Assembly: GCA_013153105.1 (NCBI GenBank)
Contig: JAADFC010000081.1
Coordinates: forward strand, 1 to 33,186
Length of the DNA stretch: 33,186 nucleotides
Origin: Thermoproteota archaeon
GTDB lineage: Archaea > Thermoproteota > Thermoprotei_A > Sulfolobales > Pyrodictiaceae
Reading direction: 5' to 3'
Shown: in pieces, positions 14,992 to 27,596 of the stretch
Layout: every line of letters starts with the position of its first letter
How positions within the stretch are numbered: the stretch's first letter is position 1
Notes under the pieces: generated by a model
Seen by the model: only the letters and a program-made list of their open reading frames with translations
Told to the model about the DNA's origin: nothing
The model's database searches: none
Made by a program: the position numbers and the translations under genes

Positions 14992-16716
14992 CTAGGCTGC
15001 CTCTTCGCGGGCGGCGTCCTCGTCTGGCAGTAGCAGTAGTAGCGGCTCTGGCGCGTCCCGTGTGGAGGCGACGGCCCACCCGGTGTCTATGACTGCGAGT
15101 GTCTTCATTACAGTGTTTATGGCGTTCTCTTCAGTGTGGCCTGTCACGAGCTGGGCCATGTACCTTGCTTCGCGTGGCTCGGACTGTCGGAGTGCTATGC
15201 GTAGCGCGGCGTTTGAGGGTATTGAATGGTGTATGCTGCTTGGCTGCTGCGTCAGAGCGGTGAGTACTACGCCGTACTTCCTGGCCTCGGCGTACAGTTT
15301 CGCTGCTATGTTGTCCCTGTCTTCTTTCGGCGCGTATATGTGGGCCTCGTCCAGGACTATGAGCAGCCTCGCCCGCGGCCCCGCGTGGCCGAGGAGCTGC
15401 ATATGGGTGTAGACGAGTCTGAGCAGGGTGTCCACGTATAGCCGTTTTTGCTCGTGGCTGCGGAGTTGTGAGAGGTCTATTATCGTGTTGGACTTGAACA
15501 GCTCTCCCACGTTTACGGTAGTCCTCGAGAACGTCGAGCCTGCAAGCAGTGCTATGTAGCTTGCCAGGAGGGCTGCCCGTTTATCGTGGACGGCGAGTCG
15601 GCGTAGATACGCTTCAAGGTCGGCCAGTGTCGGGCCGGGCCGCCGCCACGTGGCGGGGTCGTCGTCCCGTATCTCGCTGGCCTCGTATAGCTCTGACAGC
15701 GCCTGCTCTAGCAGCTGCTGCTGGAGCGGGCCGAGCCGGAAGATGGAGGCTATCAGCTGGGCAGCCTCGGCCGCTCTCTCCCGGGGCGGGGCGCCAGCGG
15801 GGTCTAGGGGGTTCACGGCTGCCCGACGCGGGTCTAGCACCCTAAAGCCTGGCAGCAGTCTAGCATACTCGCCGTGCGGGTCTACGACGAGAACGTGCAC
15901 CCCCTGCGCTGCGGCCTCGGCTGCGAGGCGGGCTGCGAGCCTGGACTTACCGGCGCCGGTGGCGCCGGCTATGAAGCCGTGGGTGGGCCCGTCGACCCTT
16001 AGAAGCCTGGTTCTAGCCTCCGTGGGCTGTAGGGAGAGCAGCCAGCCCCAGGGCCCGTGGCGCGGCTCCGGGAGCTTCACGTGTAGGCAGTTGCACCTGC
16101 TGAGCGCGGCTACAACCCTACCGAGGCGTGTCTCGCCGGTCCCCGCCGGTATGGGGGGCGGCAGCAGGGAGAGCCCGGTCACGGCGGCGGAGGGCTCGTA
16201 GACGGCTATGGCTGCGATGACCGCAGCGGCTGCGGTGGCTGGCGTGCATGAGAGAAGCGTGAACCCGTGGACCATGAAGGCTGCTATTACAGCGCCCGGC
16301 AGCGTCGGCTGGCCAGCCGCGGGCAGGGCTGCGGCGGCCGCGGCTGCGAGCAGGAGGTTGAGCCCGCTTCTCTGGAGGCTGCAGAGCGACTTGGGGGCCG
16401 CCAGCAGGGGGAGGGTAAGTGTGAGCGGGTCCCGGCCGCCCCGGAGGCTGCGGTAGGCGTTGACCAGTGCAGCTATTATCGCGGCGGACACGGCCGGGGA
16501 GGCGTAGCCTCCGAGGCCTGTTGCGGCTGCAACCCACGCAGCCACCGCCACGGAGGCGGCCGCCGAGCCGGTCAGCAGCGTCAGCGCGGCCTCGGCGACG
16601 TGTACCGCCGCCCAGCCGAGGGAACCAGGCTCCAGCATTGGGGCCGGCGCGAGCAGGGCGGCGGTTGCCACTGCTATAAGCGTCAGCCGTCTACACCCAG
16701 AGACCGGCTGCTCCAT
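14992..16716 (-). CDS. HerA/VirD4-like ATPase with polytopic N-terminal membrane domain (CedB-like candidate)
   Basis: ~200 aa hydrophobic Ala/Leu-rich N-terminus, Walker A GATGAGKSRLAARLAAEAA, DPHGEYARLLPG, Walker B LLIVLDEAHIYAPKE, TQQPSSIHHSIPSNA. Confidence 0.85.
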   Translation of the reverse strand: MEQPVSGCRRLTLIAVATAALLAPAPMLEPGSLGWAAVHVAEAALTLLTGSAAASVAVAAWVAAATGLGGYASPAVSAAIIAALVNAYRSLRGGRDPLTLTLPLLAAPKSLCSLQRSGLNLLLAAAAAAALPAAGQPTLPGAVIAAFMVHGFTLLSCTPATAAAAVIAAIAVYEPSAAVTGLSLLPPPIPAGTGETRLGRVVAALSRCNCLHVKLPEPRHGPWGWLLSLQPTEARTRLLRVDGPTHGFIAGATGAGKSRLAARLAAEAAAQGVHVLVVDPHGEYARLLPGFRVLDPRRAAVNPLDPAGAPPRERAAEAAQLIASIFRLGPLQQQLLEQALSELYEASEIRDDDPATWRRPGPTLADLEAYLRRLAVHDKRAALLASYIALLAGSTFSRTTVNVGELFKSNTIIDLSQLRSHEQKRLYVDTLLRLVYTHMQLLGHAGPRARLLIVLDEAHIYAPKEDRDNIAAKLYAEARKYGVVLTALTQQPSSIHHSIPSNAALRIALRQSEPREARYMAQLVTGHTEENAINTVMKTLAVIDTGWAVASTRDAPEPLLLLLPDEDAAREEAA

Positions 16717-16748: not shown

Positions 16749-19550
16749 ATGGCAGGCGTCTCAGGGAGCTTCCGGCTGCTGCACCCGCGGCTGCAGGCCG
16801 CGCTTGAGCTGAGAGGCTACCGTCAGCCGACGCCGGTCCAGGAGAAGGCTATACCGGCTATACTCCGCGGGGAGAACGTGCTGATTATAGCGCCGACGGG
16901 TAGCGGTAAGACTGAGGCGGCCCTCCTCCCGATATTCTCTAGGCTCATAGGCTCCAGGGAGCCCGGCGTGAAGGCTATCTACGTCACTCCCCTGCGTAGC
17001 CTGAACAGGGACATCTTCCGGAGGCTAGCCGAGCTCGCGGCCAGCGTTGGCCTGCGGCTGGAGGTTAGGCACGGTGACAGCACGTCGGGCGAGAAGAGAC
17101 GCTTCCTCATGAATCCTCCCGACATAATGGTTACCACTCCCGAGACGCTCTACTTCCTCCTCTCTGTGGACCGGTTCCGCGAGTCACTCAAGAGTCTCCG
17201 CTTCATAGTTGTAGACGAGGTTCACGAGCTGGTCTCGAGTAAGAGGGGTGTCGAGTTCAGCCTGGCGCTCGAGAGGCTCGAGCGCTGGTATGCCAGGAGG
17301 AGACTGCAAGTAGCGGCGTTGTCGGCGACGGTGGCCGACCCCTGGAGGGTTGGCCGCCTCGTCTTCTCATGGAGGCGGTTCGTGGTAGTCGAGCCTGCCG
17401 CCTCAAAGAAGCTTGCTGTAACTGTAGACTACGCGGGCCCAGGCGGGGCGGCGTTGAGGATAGCCGAGTATGTTGGTAGTGTGGAGGGCCCCGTCCTAGT
17501 CTTCGCCAACACGCGTGACACAGCTGAGATGCTCGCTGTAGAGCTCGCGGAGATACTCGGGGAGGACAAAGTCCGCGTCCACCATGGTAGCCTTAGTAGA
17601 GAAGTGAGGGTTGAGGTTGAGAGGCTGCTGAAGCAGGGGAGAGTGAAGGTTGTCGTTGCAACGTCAAGCTTAGAGTTGGGCATTGACGTGGGCAGTGTAG
17701 GGCTTGTGGTACAGTATCTATCGCCTAGGCAGGCGCTGAAGCTTACACAGCGCGCGGGCAGGTCCGGCCACCGGCTGGACGCCGAGTCGCGGGCTGTAAT
17801 AGTCTCCGATGGCAGCGTCTTCGACCTGCTAGAGTCGGCGGTTATAGCCGCGAGGGCGGCTCGGGGGGATATAGAGGAGCTGCCGGCGCATAGCCGTGCC
17901 CTCGACGCCCTTGTCCACCAGCTTGTAGGGATGGCTATAGAGAAGGGGAGGTTCAGCGTATGGGACGCCTACGGTATCGTAGCTGCCTCAGCGTATTATG
18001 AGGGTGTTGACATAGACTACATAGCTGAGGCTGTAGATGTCGCGGCTGGGTCGCGGCTGCTCCGCCGCTCCGGCGAGACGCTCTCCCCCGGCGCCCGCTC
18101 GAAGAGCTACTACTTCTCGACAACAATGATACCCGACACAGTCCAGTACATGGTTGTGGACGTGGAGAGTGGCAGGAGGATAGGCAGTCTCGACGAGGAG
18201 TTTGTTGTAACGCTTGAGCCTGGTAGTGTGTTCGTACTCTCGGGGAGACTGTGGGAGGTCGTGGATATTGAAGGGGAAAACGTACGCGTGCGCCCCAAGA
18301 GGGAGGTGAGGCTAGTACTCCCGAGCTGGGAGGGCGACCTCATACCCGTAGACTACAAGGTTGCGAGAGAGGTTGCAAGCCTCCTCCGCCGCTTCGAGGC
18401 CCGAGGCAGGCTGCCCGAGGGCTACCCGCTCGTAGATAGGGCTCGTCGACGGGTCGAGGAGGTCCTCCGCCGCCACCTGGAGACTGCCAAGGTGCTGCCC
18501 CATGATCGTAGGCTTGTCGTAGAGGCTTACGGGGATACCGTGGTTGTCTACTGCTTCCTCGGCAGTAGGGGCTGCAAGGCGATGGAGTACCTCCTCTCCG
18601 CGTACCTAGAGCAGGCGTATGGCATCGTGCCGCAGGCCGGGAGCACGCCATATGTCGTGCTGCTCCGGCTTCCAAGGCCGCTGGCCGTGGAGGAGGTTGT
18701 AAGGGCGCTAAGGAGCCTCGCGGATCTCCCTAGGGAGGAGCGTAGGAGAATGTTAGCTAGCGCGGTGAAGAGAAGCCGCGTCTACGAATGGATACTCTAC
18801 CGCGTCGCCCAGCGCGCCGGAGCCCTGCCCCGCCGAGGCTCTGACGCGGCAGCGGTGAAGGCGATACTAAGGACATTGAAGGATACACCTATAGGCGAGG
18901 AGGCTATGCGCGAGATCATGACCGTAAAGGTTGACTGTAAGCCCCTAGAGAGGCTCTTCGAAGGCATAAAGCGCGGCAGTATAGAGGTTGTGGGCTACCA
19001 GGGGAGGCACCTTACCCCCCTAACCCAGGAGGCGGCGGGCGAGGCCAGGCTGGGCGAGCGTGTAAGCCCCGAGAAGCTCCCTCCAAGCCTCATAGCCGAG
19101 ATAGTCAAGAGGAGGATGGCGCAGCGCGACGCCATACTTGTATGCATGAGGTGCGGCGAGACGACGGTGGTTAAGATATCGAGGCTCCCGAGCTACCCCG
19201 AGAAGCCGCGCTGCCCCCGCTGCGGCGCCTCGCTGCTAGCGCCGGTCTACAGCGAGGAGGAGGCGCACGAGGCGAAACGCCTCCTAGCCGCTGCACGCCG
19301 CGGCAAGTTGAGGGGCGCGGATAGAAAGAGGCTCCAAGAGCTCATGGAGAGAGCTGACCTAGTCCTGCAGTACGGCCGATACGCGGTGGAGGCCCTCTAT
19401 AGCAGGGGTGTGGGTGTCGTTAATGCTCGACGCGCGCTGAAGAACCTTACAGTGTTTGGTGAAGCTGCGTTCTACGAGGCGCTGGTGAAGGCTGAGGCGA
19501 ACTACGCCAGGTATAGGGGTAGGCTCCAGAAGAGCACGGCTCGCGCCTAG
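16749..19550 (+). CDS. lhr: Lhr-type superfamily 2 DNA helicase
   Basis: TPVQEKAIPAILRGENVLIIAPTGSGKTEAALLP, VVDEVHELVSSKRG, ATSSLELGIDVGSVGLVVQYLSPRQALKLTQRAGRSGHR; C-terminal zinc-finger-like CMRCGE..CPRCGA. Confidence 0.92.
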   Translation: MAGVSGSFRLLHPRLQAALELRGYRQPTPVQEKAIPAILRGENVLIIAPTGSGKTEAALLPIFSRLIGSREPGVKAIYVTPLRSLNRDIFRRLAELAASVGLRLEVRHGDSTSGEKRRFLMNPPDIMVTTPETLYFLLSVDRFRESLKSLRFIVVDEVHELVSSKRGVEFSLALERLERWYARRRLQVAALSATVADPWRVGRLVFSWRRFVVVEPAASKKLAVTVDYAGPGGAALRIAEYVGSVEGPVLVFANTRDTAEMLAVELAEILGEDKVRVHHGSLSREVRVEVERLLKQGRVKVVVATSSLELGIDVGSVGLVVQYLSPRQALKLTQRAGRSGHRLDAESRAVIVSDGSVFDLLESAVIAARAARGDIEELPAHSRALDALVHQLVGMAIEKGRFSVWDAYGIVAASAYYEGVDIDYIAEAVDVAAGSRLLRRSGETLSPGARSKSYYFSTTMIPDTVQYMVVDVESGRRIGSLDEEFVVTLEPGSVFVLSGRLWEVVDIEGENVRVRPKREVRLVLPSWEGDLIPVDYKVAREVASLLRRFEARGRLPEGYPLVDRARRRVEEVLRRHLETAKVLPHDRRLVVEAYGDTVVVYCFLGSRGCKAMEYLLSAYLEQAYGIVPQAGSTPYVVLLRLPRPLAVEEVVRALRSLADLPREERRRMLASAVKRSRVYEWILYRVAQRAGALPRRGSDAAAVKAILRTLKDTPIGEEAMREIMTVKVDCKPLERLFEGIKRGSIEVVGYQGRHLTPLTQEAAGEARLGERVSPEKLPPSLIAEIVKRRMAQRDAILVCMRCGETTVVKISRLPSYPEKPRCPRCGASLLAPVYSEEEAHEAKRLLAAARRGKLRGADRKRLQELMERADLVLQYGRYAVEALYSRGVGVVNARRALKNLTVFGEAAFYEALVKAEANYARYRGRLQKSTARA

Positions 19551-19613: not shown

Positions 19614-19877
19614 TTGGCGCAGGGGATAACCGAGCTTATCTCACAGCTGACCCAGCAGGTGGTCAGCGCGGCCTGGGGCCTCTTTCTGCTAACCTGGAGC
19701 CTAGGCTGGATACTTCGCGGCGCCCCTATACCCTTCCTCCGTGTAAAACGCGCAGGCCAGGACCTTGTCGAAGATGCTGTGTGGGCCGCCTTCTGGCTCG
19801 CCGTCGGCTCAACGATATTCGCAGCTGTATCATATATAGCAAACACGATATCGAGCTCTGTAACCGGGGTAGGGTGA
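19614..19877 (+). CDS. Small 2-TM membrane protein, CedA1/VirB2-like pilin candidate
   Basis: 87 aa, two hydrophobic segments around a basic loop (RGAPIPFLRVKRAGQD); TTG start with GGGGAGG SD; immediately upstream of the CedA-like gene. Confidence 0.75.
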   Translation: MAQGITELISQLTQQVVSAAWGLFLLTWSLGWILRGAPIPFLRVKRAGQDLVEDAVWAAFWLAVGSTIFAAVSYIANTISSSVTGVG

Positions 19878-19884
19878 CGTAGCG

Positions 19885-21411
19885 TTGCTGGTATCGCAGC
19901 TGCTGGCGATAGCGACCCAGCTGGCAGTGCTGACATACTACACGGGAGTCCTCATCTACATGTTACCCATACCCCTCAAGAGGCTGAAGAGGCTAGCCCC
20001 CCATCTCATGGTCGACGGGCTCTACGCGGCGCTCCTCATAGGGCTATTCTCCACCCTGCTCTATGTGAGTGACTACATAGGGAGCCTCAGCGGCTACACG
20101 CTGATGGATGTTTTGGTAACGACGCAGGGGTACTTCCGTGGTGTACTCGAGCTGTACTACATGAAGAAGATGTACGAGCTTCTGATGAGCGCCATACCCA
20201 TAGGCAAACCCTCACTCGCAATATCGATAATATTCATACCGCTAATGGTTGTATACACATTCATAGTATCAGCGAGCCTGTCCCTGCTCTCCATCGTACT
20301 CTCCGTGATAAACCTCAAAGCAGAGCTAATGGCACTGGGCGTCGCGCTATACGCCGTACCACTTCGCCTCGCGCGGAGCGCAGGCGCGTCACTGATAGCC
20401 TTCGCCCTTGTAGTCAACGCGGCGCTCCCGTTCTTCCCCCACTGGATGAAGATGATACTAAGCTCGGTAGGCCTCTCAGAGAAGGAGCTGTTCTGGGAAA
20501 ACGAGACGCTGACAACCTATCCAACACCAAGCCTGCACCCCTTCTGGGGAAGAGTTACAGACAGCCTAGGCGACGCGCCGAAGTACGCAGTGGTGGCGGT
20601 AGAGAATTCGACTACAGTCATACTATACCAGACTAACCGCCAAGGATACTATGCAGCATCAAACCCTGCACCCTCCACAGGAACCTATGATATATACGTG
20701 GACTACATGGGCTTGAAGATAACCGAGCCCCCACTGATGCGGGTCAGAGTGCCAGCCGACCTAGAGCCTACATACGAAGCCACCATACTCCCGTACCGGT
20801 TCGACATCAAGCTCTCAAGTATCGTGAAGTTCCTTGAACCGCAGGCCATCCTATGGACGAACTGCGCTATAGAAGACGCAGAACACTACATAGCACCGGA
20901 CGGAGACAGGATAGTGCATAGCAACGTTCTGAAGTGCACGTTCATGATAAGCCCAGAACTGCATGCAATGATGGGTCTACCCTCAGCATGTAGGCTACGC
21001 TCATTCCTGATACAACCCCCAAGCGTTGGCGGAGTCACGAGGGCGACTCTCGAGCAGAGGGACTGGCACGGGCTCCAGGTCGATGTATACAGTATCGTGG
21101 GCCTAGTGAACCTAACAAAAATAGAGAACGGAGGCTTTACGCTAAGGATAGACTACGACTGCCCTAGGAACTATGTGCCCTACCAGCCTCTTGGCGTCTC
21201 AAGCTTGGAGCCTGACAGCCTCTATGCACAAGTAACAGCAGAACTCGAGAAAAGCGTTGAAAAAGCTGATATGATGAATATAATACCGTTTGGTATAGCA
21301 TTCAGCCTCTCAGTATTTTCATTTCTAACAATAGTAATGCTTATCGTTAGAGATACGGCGCGTTTGATTGGCGCGTACTCGCCTTCGATAGTAATCGAGC
21401 CCCTGAGGTGA
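19885..21411 (+). CDS. Polytopic membrane protein, CedA/VirB6-like, with ~270-aa predicted ectodomain
   Basis: Multiple N-terminal TM segments (to ~aa 187), hydrophilic beta-rich region with four Cys, one C-terminal TM; TTG start; operon context with pilin-like and ATPase genes. Confidence 0.75.
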   Translation: MLVSQLLAIATQLAVLTYYTGVLIYMLPIPLKRLKRLAPHLMVDGLYAALLIGLFSTLLYVSDYIGSLSGYTLMDVLVTTQGYFRGVLELYYMKKMYELLMSAIPIGKPSLAISIIFIPLMVVYTFIVSASLSLLSIVLSVINLKAELMALGVALYAVPLRLARSAGASLIAFALVVNAALPFFPHWMKMILSSVGLSEKELFWENETLTTYPTPSLHPFWGRVTDSLGDAPKYAVVAVENSTTVILYQTNRQGYYAASNPAPSTGTYDIYVDYMGLKITEPPLMRVRVPADLEPTYEATILPYRFDIKLSSIVKFLEPQAILWTNCAIEDAEHYIAPDGDRIVHSNVLKCTFMISPELHAMMGLPSACRLRSFLIQPPSVGGVTRATLEQRDWHGLQVDVYSIVGLVNLTKIENGGFTLRIDYDCPRNYVPYQPLGVSSLEPDSLYAQVTAELEKSVEKADMMNIIPFGIAFSLSVFSFLTIVMLIVRDTARLIGAYSPSIVIEPLR

Positions 21412-21416
21412 AGCGC

Positions 21417-21587
21417 ATGGGTAGAGTGATCAGGCTCACACCCTCAACGGCCTCGGCTGCGGCTCTAGCCGTAGCAGCCGCGACGGCTGTCACGAACTAT
21501 GATAGCAGTATAGTATTAATTTTATTCTTTTTAAATGTTTTATTTGGGATTATAGTGTATAGGGTTGCTTGGAGGGATGCAAGTTGA
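21417..21587 (+). CDS. Small 2-TM membrane protein (CedA2 candidate), missing from the ORF track
   Basis: My translation: MGRVIRLTPSTASAAALAVAAATAVTNYDSSIVLILFFLNVLFGIIVYRVAWRDAS*; 56 aa; overlaps the start of the next gene. Confidence 0.68.
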   Translation: MGRVIRLTPSTASAAALAVAAATAVTNYDSSIVLILFFLNVLFGIIVYRVAWRDAS

Positions 21588-22843
21588 TACGTAGTCTCAT
21601 CCCGCAAGGGCTCTTAAGGCTCTTAAGTTCGAAGGGTGGCGAGGAGGGGCGTCTCTGTATAGTACGTGTGCGTAACCGCGAGTGTATAGTGAAGCTCATC
21701 TACCGCGGGCTACTTGCCGACCTCGCGCTGTCCGAAGGGGTCTGTGGAGTAGGGGTGAGCTACACCCGGGCCCCTCTGGGCCCGGCGCTGCGGAGGTTGA
21801 GGTCGGACATACTCAGCCTGGAGGTCATGTTGGAGCAGCGCGAGTCGGCGGCCAGGAGGGAACAGCTAGACCTACTGCGTAGCGTCGAGAAGAGGATAGC
21901 CAGAGAAGCTACGGCGGTTAAGGCTCACCTATACTTTGTTACGTGTGGTGAGCACAGTATTGTAGACGAGCTTAGGTCGCTGGGCTGTAGCGTTGAGGTT
22001 GCATGCGCGAGCGGCGGTGACGTAGGCTTTTTTCGGCCGTTAAGGCTCGGCGGCTACTTCGTCCCGGCAAGCGACGCCGTAGCCTCCGTAGCGTCAGCCG
22101 TCGCCGCCTTAGAGCCGCTCCAGCCGCCAGCAGAGGGTGAAGCAGGGCTCCCTATAGGCGTCGAGCCTAGGCTGCGCGTTGCTGCGTGGCTCGTGCTGAG
22201 GGGACCGGAAGGCGCCAGGCATAGTGTTGTCGTGGGGCCTACGGGGAGGGGTAAGACGTCCCTCCTCGCTCTAGTAGCTAGTCTCGGTGTGCTAGTTGGA
22301 CTCCGTGTGGTCATCCTAGACGCCAAGGGTGACCTTGTACGCTACGTTCTAGAGCTGCTGCCCCCGGCTTGTCTTGAGCGACTGGTAGTGGTAGAGCCGG
22401 AGGAGGGTGAAGCGGTTCTCCGTAGTGTAGCGGAGGAGGCGCGCGCGTCTCCTTCAACCAGGCTCCGGAGGATGCTCATAGTCGACGAGGCTTGGCAGGT
22501 TAGGCGGGGGCTGCTCTCCTCCGTCTACCGGGTGGCTCGGAGCGCGGGGACTGCGGTGATAGCGTCTACACAATACCCAGACGATCTCGGTGGCGTTGTC
22601 TGGAGCAACGCGGCCAACGTTGTCGCTTTCACCTCGGAGGACGAGGATTACATCAAGGCTCTTAGTCGGAGAATGCCGGTGAAGCGTTCCCTTGCAGGGC
22701 TTGGCTTGGGCGAAGCGTTTGTCTGGAGGGGCGGCGAGGCCGTCCTAGTACGGCTCTTCAACCCCTTCGCCCTGCTCGGCGGCCTTAAGGCTAACAGTTT
22801 AAACGGCAGAGCTGCGGCCCGGCCCCAGTCCACGGGGCGGTAA
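21584..22843 (+). CDS. VirB4/HerA-like ATPase of the Ced-like operon
   Basis: Walker A GPTGRGKTSLLAL, LDAKGDLVRYVL, Walker B MLIVDEAWQVRR, STQYPDDL. Start probably TTG 21584 (GGAGGG SD, TTGA overlap with the preceding stop); the track start 21569 is an alternative. Confidence 0.85.
   Translation: MIRSLIPQGLLRLLSSKGGEEGRLCIVRVRNRECIVKLIYRGLLADLALSEGVCGVGVSYTRAPLGPALRRLRSDILSLEVMLEQRESAARREQLDLLRSVEKRIAREATAVKAHLYFVTCGEHSIVDELRSLGCSVEVACASGGDVGFFRPLRLGGYFVPASDAVASVASAVAALEPLQPPAEGEAGLPIGVEPRLRVAAWLVLRGPEGARHSVVVGPTGRGKTSLLALVASLGVLVGLRVVILDAKGDLVRYVLELLPPACLERLVVVEPEEGEAVLRSVAEEARASPSTRLRRMLIVDEAWQVRRGLLSSVYRVARSAGTAVIASTQYPDDLGGVVWSNAANVVAFTSEDEDYIKALSRRMPVKRSLAGLGLGEAFVWRGGEAVLVRLFNPFALLGGLKANSLNGRAAARPQSTGR
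22796..22804 (+). promoter_or_regulatory. Possible internal TATA-like element upstream of rpl2
   Basis: AGTTTAAAC about 41-49 nt upstream of the rpl2 ATG, within the C-terminal coding tail of the ATPase gene. Confidence 0.3.
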
Positions 22844-22844
22844 T

Positions 22845-23561
22845 ATGGGTAAGCGGCTCATAGTCCAGCGGCGTGGCCACGCATCGCCCCTCTACCGCAG
22901 CAGGGGCTGGCTACACCCCGCTCCGGCCAGGTACCCGCCCCTCACCGACGTGACGCTCAAGGGCCGTGTCATGGAGCTGCGCCACGACCCTGGCCGCTGG
23001 GTGCCCCTGGCGAGGATCGTGTTGGAGAACGGGCAGGAGTTCTGGATACCCGCCGCTGAGGGCATGTACGTTGGTCAGGTTATAGAGGTCGGTCCCGACG
23101 CGAAGCCGGCTAACGGCAACATACTCCCCATAGGCAAGATACCTGAGGGCACGCAGATATACAACGTTGAGATACGCCCAGGCGACGGCGGCAAACTGGC
23201 CCGCTCCTCTGGCGCCTACGCGGTCATACTCGGCCGCAGCGGCAACAAGACCATAATACAGCTCCCCAGCGGCAAGGCCAAGGAGATCCCCAACGAGGCA
23301 AGGGCCACTATAGGCATCGCAGCCGGGGCGGGTAGGCTTGAGAAGCCCCTGCTCAAGGCAGGCGCCGCGTTCTACAAGTGGAGCGCCAAGCCGCACGTAT
23401 GGCCGCGCGTACGCGGCGTGGCTATGAACGCTGTCAACCACCCGCACGGTGGAGGCAACCACCAGAGCCCCAGCTTCCCGACCACCGTATCGAGGAACGC
23501 GCCGCCGGGCAGGAAGGTTGGCCACATCGCAGCCAGGACCACGGGCAGGCGCAAGCGATAA
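22845..23561 (+). CDS. rpl2: 50S ribosomal protein L2
   Basis: MGKRLIVQRRGHASPLYRSRGWLHPAPARYPPL..GVAMNAVNHPHGGGNHQS..PGRKVGHIAARTTGRRKR. Confidence 0.97.
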   Translation: MGKRLIVQRRGHASPLYRSRGWLHPAPARYPPLTDVTLKGRVMELRHDPGRWVPLARIVLENGQEFWIPAAEGMYVGQVIEVGPDAKPANGNILPIGKIPEGTQIYNVEIRPGDGGKLARSSGAYAVILGRSGNKTIIQLPSGKAKEIPNEARATIGIAAGAGRLEKPLLKAGAAFYKWSAKPHVWPRVRGVAMNAVNHPHGGGNHQSPSFPTTVSRNAPPGRKVGHIAARTTGRRKR

Positions 23562-24706: not shown

Positions 24707-26590
24707 TCAGCCCCGCAGCATGGCGTCTAGCAGGATGCGTTGCAGCTTCTTCGGCGTGTCGGCGCGGTAGAGACGTAGCCCAGGAATCCCCTCTACAACG
24801 TTGGGCGGCTCGGCGTCGCCCGGCATTATCACAGCTATCTTCCACCCCCTGGCAGTGGCCTCCGCAAGTGCGGTCTCTACTGGTTTACTCGTGGCCACTG
24901 TCTGCCTAAGGTCTGATATCAATATGAGCTTTGAGGGCGGGTGGCTGCGTGTGGCGTAGTCCAGGGCTCCGCTCACGTCTGTATAGCCTGCGAACCTTGT
25001 GGCGAGGAGCGTCTCGACTGCGCGGAGGGGCGACCTTCGCAGCATAGCCGTGGGGAGGCTCGAAGGCTTCTCGTCGAAGAGTACAAGCCTCGAAACCAGG
25101 GGGGCGAGCGCGGCAGCGGCGGCTAGCGCGTAGAAGGAGTAGGGTGCCATGCTCCCGCTCTTATCTAGAAGCAGCACCAGCCTCCGCCTCGTACCTCTGG
25201 CAAGCCCGACCAGGGGCTGAGGATGCAGACGGATGACCCGGTAAACTGTGTCCCTAACATCTAACGCCACCGCCCTACCTTCAACCTTAACCATCCTCCT
25301 GGCCGCCTCTCCGAAGCCCCTGACAAGCCTACGCCAAAGGATGTGCAGCAGCCTGGCAGCTAGGAGCTTCACCTCGGCGTTGGCGGTGCCCGTGTAGACG
25401 CTGTGGAGTATGCGGAACGCCTCGTAGGGCTCGAGGCCGCGCACAGCCTCCCTCAGCAGCCTCGCCTCGTCGCCCTCTGCGAGCGCCTCGGCCAGGGGGC
25501 CGCTCAGCCTAGCCCGCTCAGCCTCCGCAGCCGCCATGTCGAGATAGCCCCGGTTGCCCGTCTCGAAGTACCGCAGCAGGTAGCTTCGCAGCCTCCCCTC
25601 AGCCCTAAGCCTCTCCGACCCCTCCAGCAGCTCGCCGAGCCTGCCACGCCGCAGAGCCTCCTCGACACCCGGCATGTCCGCAGCCGGCAGCCCAAGGCCG
25701 CGCACCAGCGCTTCAGCCGCCTCCGAAACCCTGCCCTCGCCAGCCATTGAGACAGCCATGTCGATCAGGGCTTCGCGGCCCAGCTCCCGCGCCACCCTGG
25801 GCGCGAGACGGGGCTCAGCCTCCAGCAGAACCCTGGCCCTAGACAATGTCAACAGCCGCCCCCTCGACAGGGCCTCGAAAGCCTTAGCCGCCTCCCCCCC
25901 GCTGGCAGGCCTCTCCCCCCGGTCAAGAGCCTCCGCAATAGCCCTCGCAGCCTGCCTCCTGTCACCCGCCCTCCGAGCAGCCGCGTACACCCGGACAGCC
26001 TCGTCCAGCCTAGGGCTCCGGCCCAGGAGCTGGAGCAGCGCAGCCCCAGCCTCCCCCAGGAGCCGGCCGCCTCTGCGTATCTCAGCCTCAGCCCGGGCCT
26101 TCACAGCCTGCTCGAAGCCCCCATACCTCTCAGCGACCTCCCGCGCTAGCCTGGCAGCCTGCCTCCTGGATACCACGTACTCGCCCCTGCGCCCCCTAGA
26201 GATGAAGCCGAGCAGGCGTAGAGAAATGTAGTCCTGCATCGCCTCCGGCCGAAGCCTCCGGCGCCACTGGACCTGCTCCCCGAAGGAGAGGCCAAGCCTC
26301 CTCAGCCCCTCCTCCACATGCTCCATAACCTCCGCCTCCGGCGCCCCGCAGAGAACCCTCCTCACAGCAGCTGCAACGAGCGCCTCCTCGCCCACCCTCC
26401 TCGCGAACACTGAGGCAACCACGCTGGCGGCCTCACCAGCCCCAAGCTCGCCTGACCCGCTCAAAGCAGCGTATATCGAGAGGAGTCTTGCAGCCTCGAC
26501 CTCCTCCGCCAGGCTCACCTGCAGCCCGGCAGCCCGCAGCCTCCCGGCGACAGCTGCAACGAAGGAAGCCAGCTCCTCTGCATGCTGCAC
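24707..26590 (-). CDS. VWA (CoxE-like) domain protein
   Basis: MIDAS motif LLLDKSGSM..YTDVSGAL..LILISDLRQT; long Arg/Ala-rich helical N-terminus; GTG start at 26590 preferred over 26662 because of overlap with the upstream gene. Confidence 0.82.
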   Translation of the reverse strand: MQHAEELASFVAAVAGRLRAAGLQVSLAEEVEAARLLSIYAALSGSGELGAGEAASVVASVFARRVGEEALVAAAVRRVLCGAPEAEVMEHVEEGLRRLGLSFGEQVQWRRRLRPEAMQDYISLRLLGFISRGRRGEYVVSRRQAARLAREVAERYGGFEQAVKARAEAEIRRGGRLLGEAGAALLQLLGRSPRLDEAVRVYAAARRAGDRRQAARAIAEALDRGERPASGGEAAKAFEALSRGRLLTLSRARVLLEAEPRLAPRVARELGREALIDMAVSMAGEGRVSEAAEALVRGLGLPAADMPGVEEALRRGRLGELLEGSERLRAEGRLRSYLLRYFETGNRGYLDMAAAEAERARLSGPLAEALAEGDEARLLREAVRGLEPYEAFRILHSVYTGTANAEVKLLAARLLHILWRRLVRGFGEAARRMVKVEGRAVALDVRDTVYRVIRLHPQPLVGLARGTRRRLVLLLDKSGSMAPYSFYALAAAAALAPLVSRLVLFDEKPSSLPTAMLRRSPLRAVETLLATRFAGYTDVSGALDYATRSHPPSKLILISDLRQTVATSKPVETALAEATARGWKIAVIMPGDAEPPNVVEGIPGLRLYRADTPKKLQRILLDAMLRG

Positions 26591-26600
26591 CCTCAGGCTC

Positions 26601-27596
26601 CTACACTCCCGGCCCGAAGACCCTGCGGAGCGCCTCGTCAACGACCTCCTCCTCGCCAACACGCTTGTACAAGACTATAGAGGCTGCCTCGACGACATCC
26701 CCGGCCTCAACGCGGTCCCTACCCTTCAGGGCAGCCAGCCTCCCCGCAATACGCGCCCACAACACGGTATCAGCGGGACCCGGCTTGTACACGGCCCTCT
26801 CGCGCAGCAGCCTGGCAGCCTCAACCATCCTAGCAGCCAGCGCGGCATCCAGCCGTGGACCCGCATCGTAGCGGAGCAGTATTATCTCAACCTCCCTCTC
26901 CGGCGGAGGATAGTCGAAGGGAACCCTCACAACCCGCCTCATGAAAGCGTCGCTCAACTCACCCTGGCCGTAATCCTCGGGGTTGCTCGTGAAGATTATC
27001 TGGAAGCCAGGGTCCGAGGCCCTAACAACACTCCTAAGCTCAGGTATGACGACCCGCCGCTTATCAATAATGTCGAGCAGCAGGTTCTGAAACTCCTCGC
27101 TGCTCCTCCTAATCTCGTCGACAAGCACGCCCGCGCCTAGAACCATCGCAGCCAGCAGAGGCCGCGGCACGAAGCTCCTCTCGTTAAACCCGTACCGGAG
27201 AGCCATCAGCGGGTGGAAGTCGCCGATAACCCTATACTCGTTATAGTTCTCGCTGCAAGGTATAACGAAAGCCGGCTTCCCAGCCCAGAGGGTGAGGATA
27301 GCCTCCCCCAGCTCCGTCTTACCCGTACCCGGCGGACCCTCGAACAGCACCGGCCTCCCCGCAAGGAACGCTGCAACCACAAGCCTCACAGTACCCAAGT
27401 CGACAACCAGCCTATAGTCACGCTTCAGCCTCTCAACGATAGCCTCAGGGGAGCGCACCGGCTCACTAGCAGACTCCAATACGAAGCCATAAACGTCCCT
27501 CACCCGCTCCTCTATACTACCCGCCGCCTCCTCGCCACCCCTCTCGTCCTGGGTCAAGGGGAGCCCCGCGAAGCCGCCGGCCTCCATCAAAGCCAC
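26601..27596 (-). CDS. MoxR-family AAA+ ATPase
   Basis: LFEGPPGTGKTELGEAILTLWAG, GVLVDEIRRSSEEFQNLLLDIIDKRRV, FTSNPEDYGQGELSDAFMRR. Confidence 0.9.
   Translation of the reverse strand: MALMEAGGFAGLPLTQDERGGEEAAGSIEERVRDVYGFVLESASEPVRSPEAIVERLKRDYRLVVDLGTVRLVVAAFLAGRPVLFEGPPGTGKTELGEAILTLWAGKPAFVIPCSENYNEYRVIGDFHPLMALRYGFNERSFVPRPLLAAMVLGAGVLVDEIRRSSEEFQNLLLDIIDKRRVVIPELRSVVRASDPGFQIIFTSNPEDYGQGELSDAFMRRVVRVPFDYPPPEREVEIILLRYDAGPRLDAALAARMVEAARLLRERAVYKPGPADTVLWARIAGRLAALKGRDRVEAGDVVEAASIVLYKRVGEEEVVDEALRRVFGPGV

Follow-up and report, generated by a model that had tools for sequence, protein, structure and literature searches.

The DNA analysed here, referred to as the window, is a 33,186 nt stretch on contig C148 of G000, a 72% complete genome of the archaeal family Pyrodictiaceae. 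It contains a run of four plus-strand open reading frames (ORFs) between positions 19614 and 22843, lying exactly where the initial annotation had placed them (Table 1). The start codon is TTG for cedA1, cedA and cedB, and GTG for the 59-aa ORF. The junctions had been described as overlaps or gaps no longer than 7 nt; this holds for the 7-nt gap between cedA1 and cedA and for the 4-nt overlap between cedA and the 59-aa ORF, but the last overlap, between the 59-aa ORF and cedB, is 19 nt. The four ORFs are real genes, since the three large products have relatives at E values far below chance and the gene order recurs in those Pyrodictiaceae loci that are complete across the region. Together they are the known, standard Ced gene set, and the naming proposed initially was largely right.

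Table 1. Features of the Ced locus and its flanks in the window
Feature	Position	Strand	Basis
Membrane-anchored HerA-class ATPase, 574 aa, divergent from Lhr	14992..16716	-	Pfam DUF87, 59 bits
Lhr-type helicase, 63 nt upstream of cedA1	16749..19550	+	Pfam DEAD, DEAD_assoc, WH_Lhr
cedA1, 87-aa two-helix conjugative pilin (VirB2-like)	19614..19877	+	NF041797, PDB 8dfu
cedA, 508-aa membrane channel protein (VirB6-like) with predicted beta ectodomain at about 217-427, before the last helix	19885..21411	+	NF041796, alignment, AlphaFold
59-aa two-helix membrane protein in the cedA2 position	21408..21587	+	ORF; same slot in relatives
cedB, 424-aa HerA/VirB4-class ATPase, short form	21569..22843	+	Profiles, N-terminal domain, trees, alignment
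rpl2 (ribosomal protein L2), 1 nt after cedB	22845..23561	+	Pfam PF03947, spacing, conservation

The 87-aa product of the first gene scores 126 bits (E 4.5e-37) against NCBIfam NF041797, the CedA1 equivalog, for which the cut-off is 100 bits, and its residues 4-81 match chain B of PDB 8dfu, the CedA1 pilin of Aeropyrum pernix, with an E value of 9.1e-25; the structure of the A. pernix pilus has been published. CedA1 was found in 122 of the 147 sampled genomes of the order. The 508-aa product is matched over residues 3-193 by NCBIfam NF041796 (CedA) with 101 bits (E 8e-29). Because this score is under the equivalog cut-off of 330 bits, the protein is named here a long-form CedA homologue and kept out of the NCBI equivalog. 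Both NF041796 and NF053657 match its helical part, and the CedA1 model aligns with its N-terminus (31.6 bits, E 1.3e-7), an internal relation between CedA and CedA1 that has already been published (PMC9905601). The profile searches suggested as a check in the initial annotation thus place the presumed pilin and the polytopic membrane protein with CedA1 and CedA, respectively.

CedA was aligned across 36 relatives. The protein is 447-532 aa long outside Sulfolobaceae, compared with about 252-288 aa in Sulfolobaceae. An AlphaFold model of the window CedA, with a mean pLDDT of 86, consists of helices up to about residue 194, beta structure at about 217-427 and a long final helix. CedA outside Sulfolobaceae bears a pair of beta domains, together about 220 aa long, which probably lie outside the cell, as the layout of the helices suggests; charges near the helix ends are few in number. 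The first beta domain resembles carboxypeptidase-regulatory and pilin-type sandwiches (PF13620 under its cut-off; best Z 9.0), and the two beta-sandwich domains resemble those of the surface pilins and adhesins BcpA and RrgA. When the whole CedA model was searched with Foldseek, almost all matches were to the beta domains, and no VirB6 match to the helical part was among those listed. The fold matched by the modelled domains is a common beta-sandwich and gives no indication of function. No published description of the beta domain pair in CedA outside Sulfolobaceae was found.

Taken alone, the 424-aa ATPase scores 36 bits against NF041017 (CedB), whose equivalog cut-off of 700 bits is reached by only 21 genomes in the sampled order. 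Given this weak single-sequence score, the operon ATPases were aligned and compared as a profile built from 29 relatives. The profile matches Sulfolobaceae CedB with an E value of 9e-40 and a score of 307, compared with scores of 194 for CedD-like proteins, 206 for the membrane HerA group described below and 112 for HerA. A profile of their N-terminal domain alone also matches Sulfolobaceae CedB (E 3.8e-9), with no match to CedD, HerA or membrane HerA. In motor-domain trees, the operon ATPases group with Sulfolobaceae CedB at a branch with a support of 99, and of 100/99 in a more careful tree; one wrong ORF labelled as CedD-like (locus L144) was excluded from the tree and from a repeated profile comparison. 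The profiles, the N-terminal domain and the trees place the protein, initially described as a VirB4/HerA ATPase, in the CedB clade. Since CedA and CedB both score below the curated equivalog cut-offs, their proposed orthology depends on profile comparisons, trees and gene order. CedB of Pyrodictiaceae is mostly short, at 411-530 aa, while that of Sulfolobaceae has about 600 aa, and the alignment indicates that the window CedB lacks the bulk of the region that separates Walker A from Walker B. With this region mostly missing, the activity of the short CedB may differ from that of the full form.

For the 59-aa protein, no matching family was found in the databases searched. A hydrophobic ORF of 49-74 aa follows cedA in each of the 14 Pyrodictiaceae relatives with coverage of this slot, and several other families also hold a small hydrophobic ORF after cedA. 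The ORF is missing from five loci of family f6, to which A. pernix belongs, and from two of family f8; in these loci, CedB starts with a hydrophobic segment. Sulfolobaceae have a similar small two-helix ORF directly after cedA, which we take to be the cedA2 position. Homology between the 59-aa protein and Sulfolobaceae CedA2 could not be demonstrated, as column-shuffled controls reached the hhalign E value of 0.018. A VirB3-like role was considered for the 59-aa protein, since its ORF precedes and overlaps a VirB4-like gene.

These genes add a Pyrodictiaceae genome to those with a Ced system. The Ced system described in Sulfolobales comprises CedA, CedA1, CedA2, CedB and CedD, and the source genome of the window has homologues of CedA1, CedA and CedB, a small ORF after cedA, and CedD. 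Sulfolobaceae differ from the window in that their CedA has no ectodomain, their CedB is longer and encoded elsewhere, and their small protein is not demonstrably homologous. The initial annotation noted that cedB lies apart from cedA in Sulfolobus, and this is true for Sulfolobaceae; in genome G022, for example, CedA1 is encoded at 1762519 and CedB at 1737518. The suggestion that an operon containing the ATPase is a special version of the system was not borne out, as the arrangement is common in the order and present in A. pernix. Among the loci that were fetched, cedB comes straight after cedA or is separated from it only by the small ORF in Pyrodictiaceae and in families f4, f6, f8, f9 and f10, while CedB next to cedA was not found in families f2, f3 and f5 or in Sulfolobaceae. 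Outside Sulfolobaceae, cedB lies directly behind cedA in most of the Ced loci examined. The compact cedA1-cedA-cedB operon is a common arrangement, and dispersed genes are seen in Sulfolobaceae and a small number of further families. The locus of A. pernix K1, recognised by a CedA1 that contains the exact 8dfu stretch, is like the window in its cedA1-cedA-cedB-rpl2 order, in its CedA of the same extended type (452 aa) and in an operon ATPase that belongs to the CedB clade. Unlike in the window, no separate gene for a small two-helix protein stands between its cedA and cedB, and its CedB is among those that begin with a hydrophobic segment. A trio of VirB2-, VirB6- and VirB4-like proteins is also encoded in one region in the Ted system of Thermoproteales, which is reported to have no recognisable sequence similarity to Ced (PMC9905601).

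On its downstream side, cedB is probably co-transcribed with rpl2. In Pyrodictiaceae loci with both genes, rpl2 lies within about 85 nt of cedB or in a short apparent overlap with it, the corresponding gap in A. pernix is 12 nt, and rps19 follows rpl2. No published description of the run-on of cedB into rpl2-rps19 was found. The Ced system of Sulfolobales is UV-induced. The published preparation of the A. pernix pilus describes no UV treatment, which, together with cedB running into rpl2-rps19, suggests that the Ced operon here is constitutive rather than damage-induced. The ced genes of Sulfolobaceae also lie in the vicinity of translation genes: upstream of them is a series of small genes and, before these, a gene for a 10-helix protein that is SecY-like by size and helix number only.

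On the upstream side, predicted RNA folding of the gap between the Lhr gene and cedA1 is indistinguishable from that of shuffled sequences. In loci L093 and L101 and in other loci of families f9 and f4, a protein of about 650 aa with a PAPS-reductase domain and ferredoxin-type Fe-S motifs is encoded between Lhr and cedA1. The membrane-anchored HerA-class ATPase, 3 kb upstream of the ced genes, forms a clade distinct from CedB, CedD and HerA, and no published description of it was found. It is present in 72 of the 122 CedA1-positive genomes and in 4 of the 25 negative ones (Fisher p 1e-4, a value that ignores shared ancestry and uses a hand-drawn family list), and it is a possible partner of Ced. 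Gene neighbourhood was rejected as evidence for this link, because in many families the gene is divergent from Lhr and near PCNA, and it keeps this position in Sulfolobaceae, although ced is often elsewhere there; the genes to which it is stably linked are those of Lhr and PCNA. The gene is split by a stop codon in one relative (L082), and in two loci of family f3 (L098 and L113) the only ORF beside Lhr at its position is a multi-helix one.

We interpret the locus, with a probability of roughly 0.9, as the chromosomal Ced operon of a Pyrodictiaceae archaeon, acting with CedD in DNA import. This reading draws on the identities, order and conservation of the genes and on the location of cedD, while pilus formation and DNA import are proposed by analogy with studies of Sulfolobales and A. 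pernix. By that analogy, CedA1 would polymerise into a thin conjugation-type pilus, which would rise from a membrane pore formed by CedA, whose own N-terminal hairpin is pilin-like. The small two-helix protein probably assists this pore or connects CedA to the ATPase, and the beta domains of CedA may have a role in extracellular contact or anchoring. CedB at the cytoplasmic face, together with CedD from elsewhere in the genome, would drive the ATP-dependent movement of DNA into the cell, where it could be used for recombinational repair.

The initial annotation described the operon as a self-contained version of the apparatus, implying that these four genes suffice for a full DNA importer, whereas Sulfolobales need dispersed genes. 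While the pilin, channel, small membrane protein and ATPase genes are indeed contiguous, the location of cedD makes this highly unlikely. The source genome encodes a CedD orthologue at 8161-9177 of contig C153, separate from the contig that carries the operon; the protein scores 181 bits against a CedD-like profile compared with 53 bits against HerA, and falls inside the CedD clade in the tree. An insertion divides its profile match in two, and a supposed absence of CedD from Pyrodictiaceae proved wrong, the match being merely split. In five near-complete relatives (G007, G028, G039, G056 and G063), CedD is likewise encoded hundreds of kb from the operon or on another contig. In Saccharolobus islandicus, CedD was reported to be indispensable for DNA import, and a joint equivalence of CedB and CedD to VirB4 has been proposed (PMC11868833).

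It is highly unlikely that the machinery mainly exports or secretes non-DNA cargo, or serves attachment with the beta domains of CedA as an adhesin. The resemblance of these domains to BcpA and RrgA fits such a role, and CedA1 also affected export in S. islandicus (PMC11868833), but a match to a common beta-sandwich shows no function, CedB is retained with CedD, and DNA import is the phenotype measured in relatives (PMC11868833). Resemblance to conjugation parts could similarly suggest a mobile conjugative element that has integrated into the chromosome and uses type IV secretion of the plasmid type. The types of component, a pilin and VirB6- and VirB4-like proteins, are shared with bacterial type IV secretion according to the literature, and matches to a HerA/TrwB-type motor are seen here. 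Unlike those systems, however, the Ced locus is chromosomal, no relaxase or coupling protein was recognised, and the direction reported is import. Moreover, in most Pyrodictiaceae loci Lhr and rpl2-rps19 flank the same gene order, the neighbours (Lhr, PCNA, rpl2 and rps19) are chromosomal housekeeping genes, CedA1 occurs in most genomes of the order, and inspection of the window ORFs that were read, part of which were searched, revealed no relaxase or integrase. A mobile element is therefore extremely improbable, and a resident Ced operon remains the preferred interpretation.

A more speculative extension, which we consider unlikely, is that outside Sulfolobaceae the external pilin/adhesin-like beta domains of CedA act as built-in cell contact, that expression of the operon is constitutive and goes together with that of ribosomal genes, and that the membrane HerA ATPase is a further DNA motor resembling a coupling protein. 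If true, the beta domains of CedA would do locally what Ups pili do in Sulfolobaceae. The CedA ectodomain, the short CedB, the separate or missing small protein and the ribosomal read-through are testable contrasts with the well-studied Sulfolobales, and they bear on DNA exchange in lineages without Ups pili.

Further along the window, inspection of the minus strand at 24707-27596 indicates a 651-aa protein whose C-terminal part is VWA-like (DxSxS), beside an ORF for a MoxR-like AAA ATPase.
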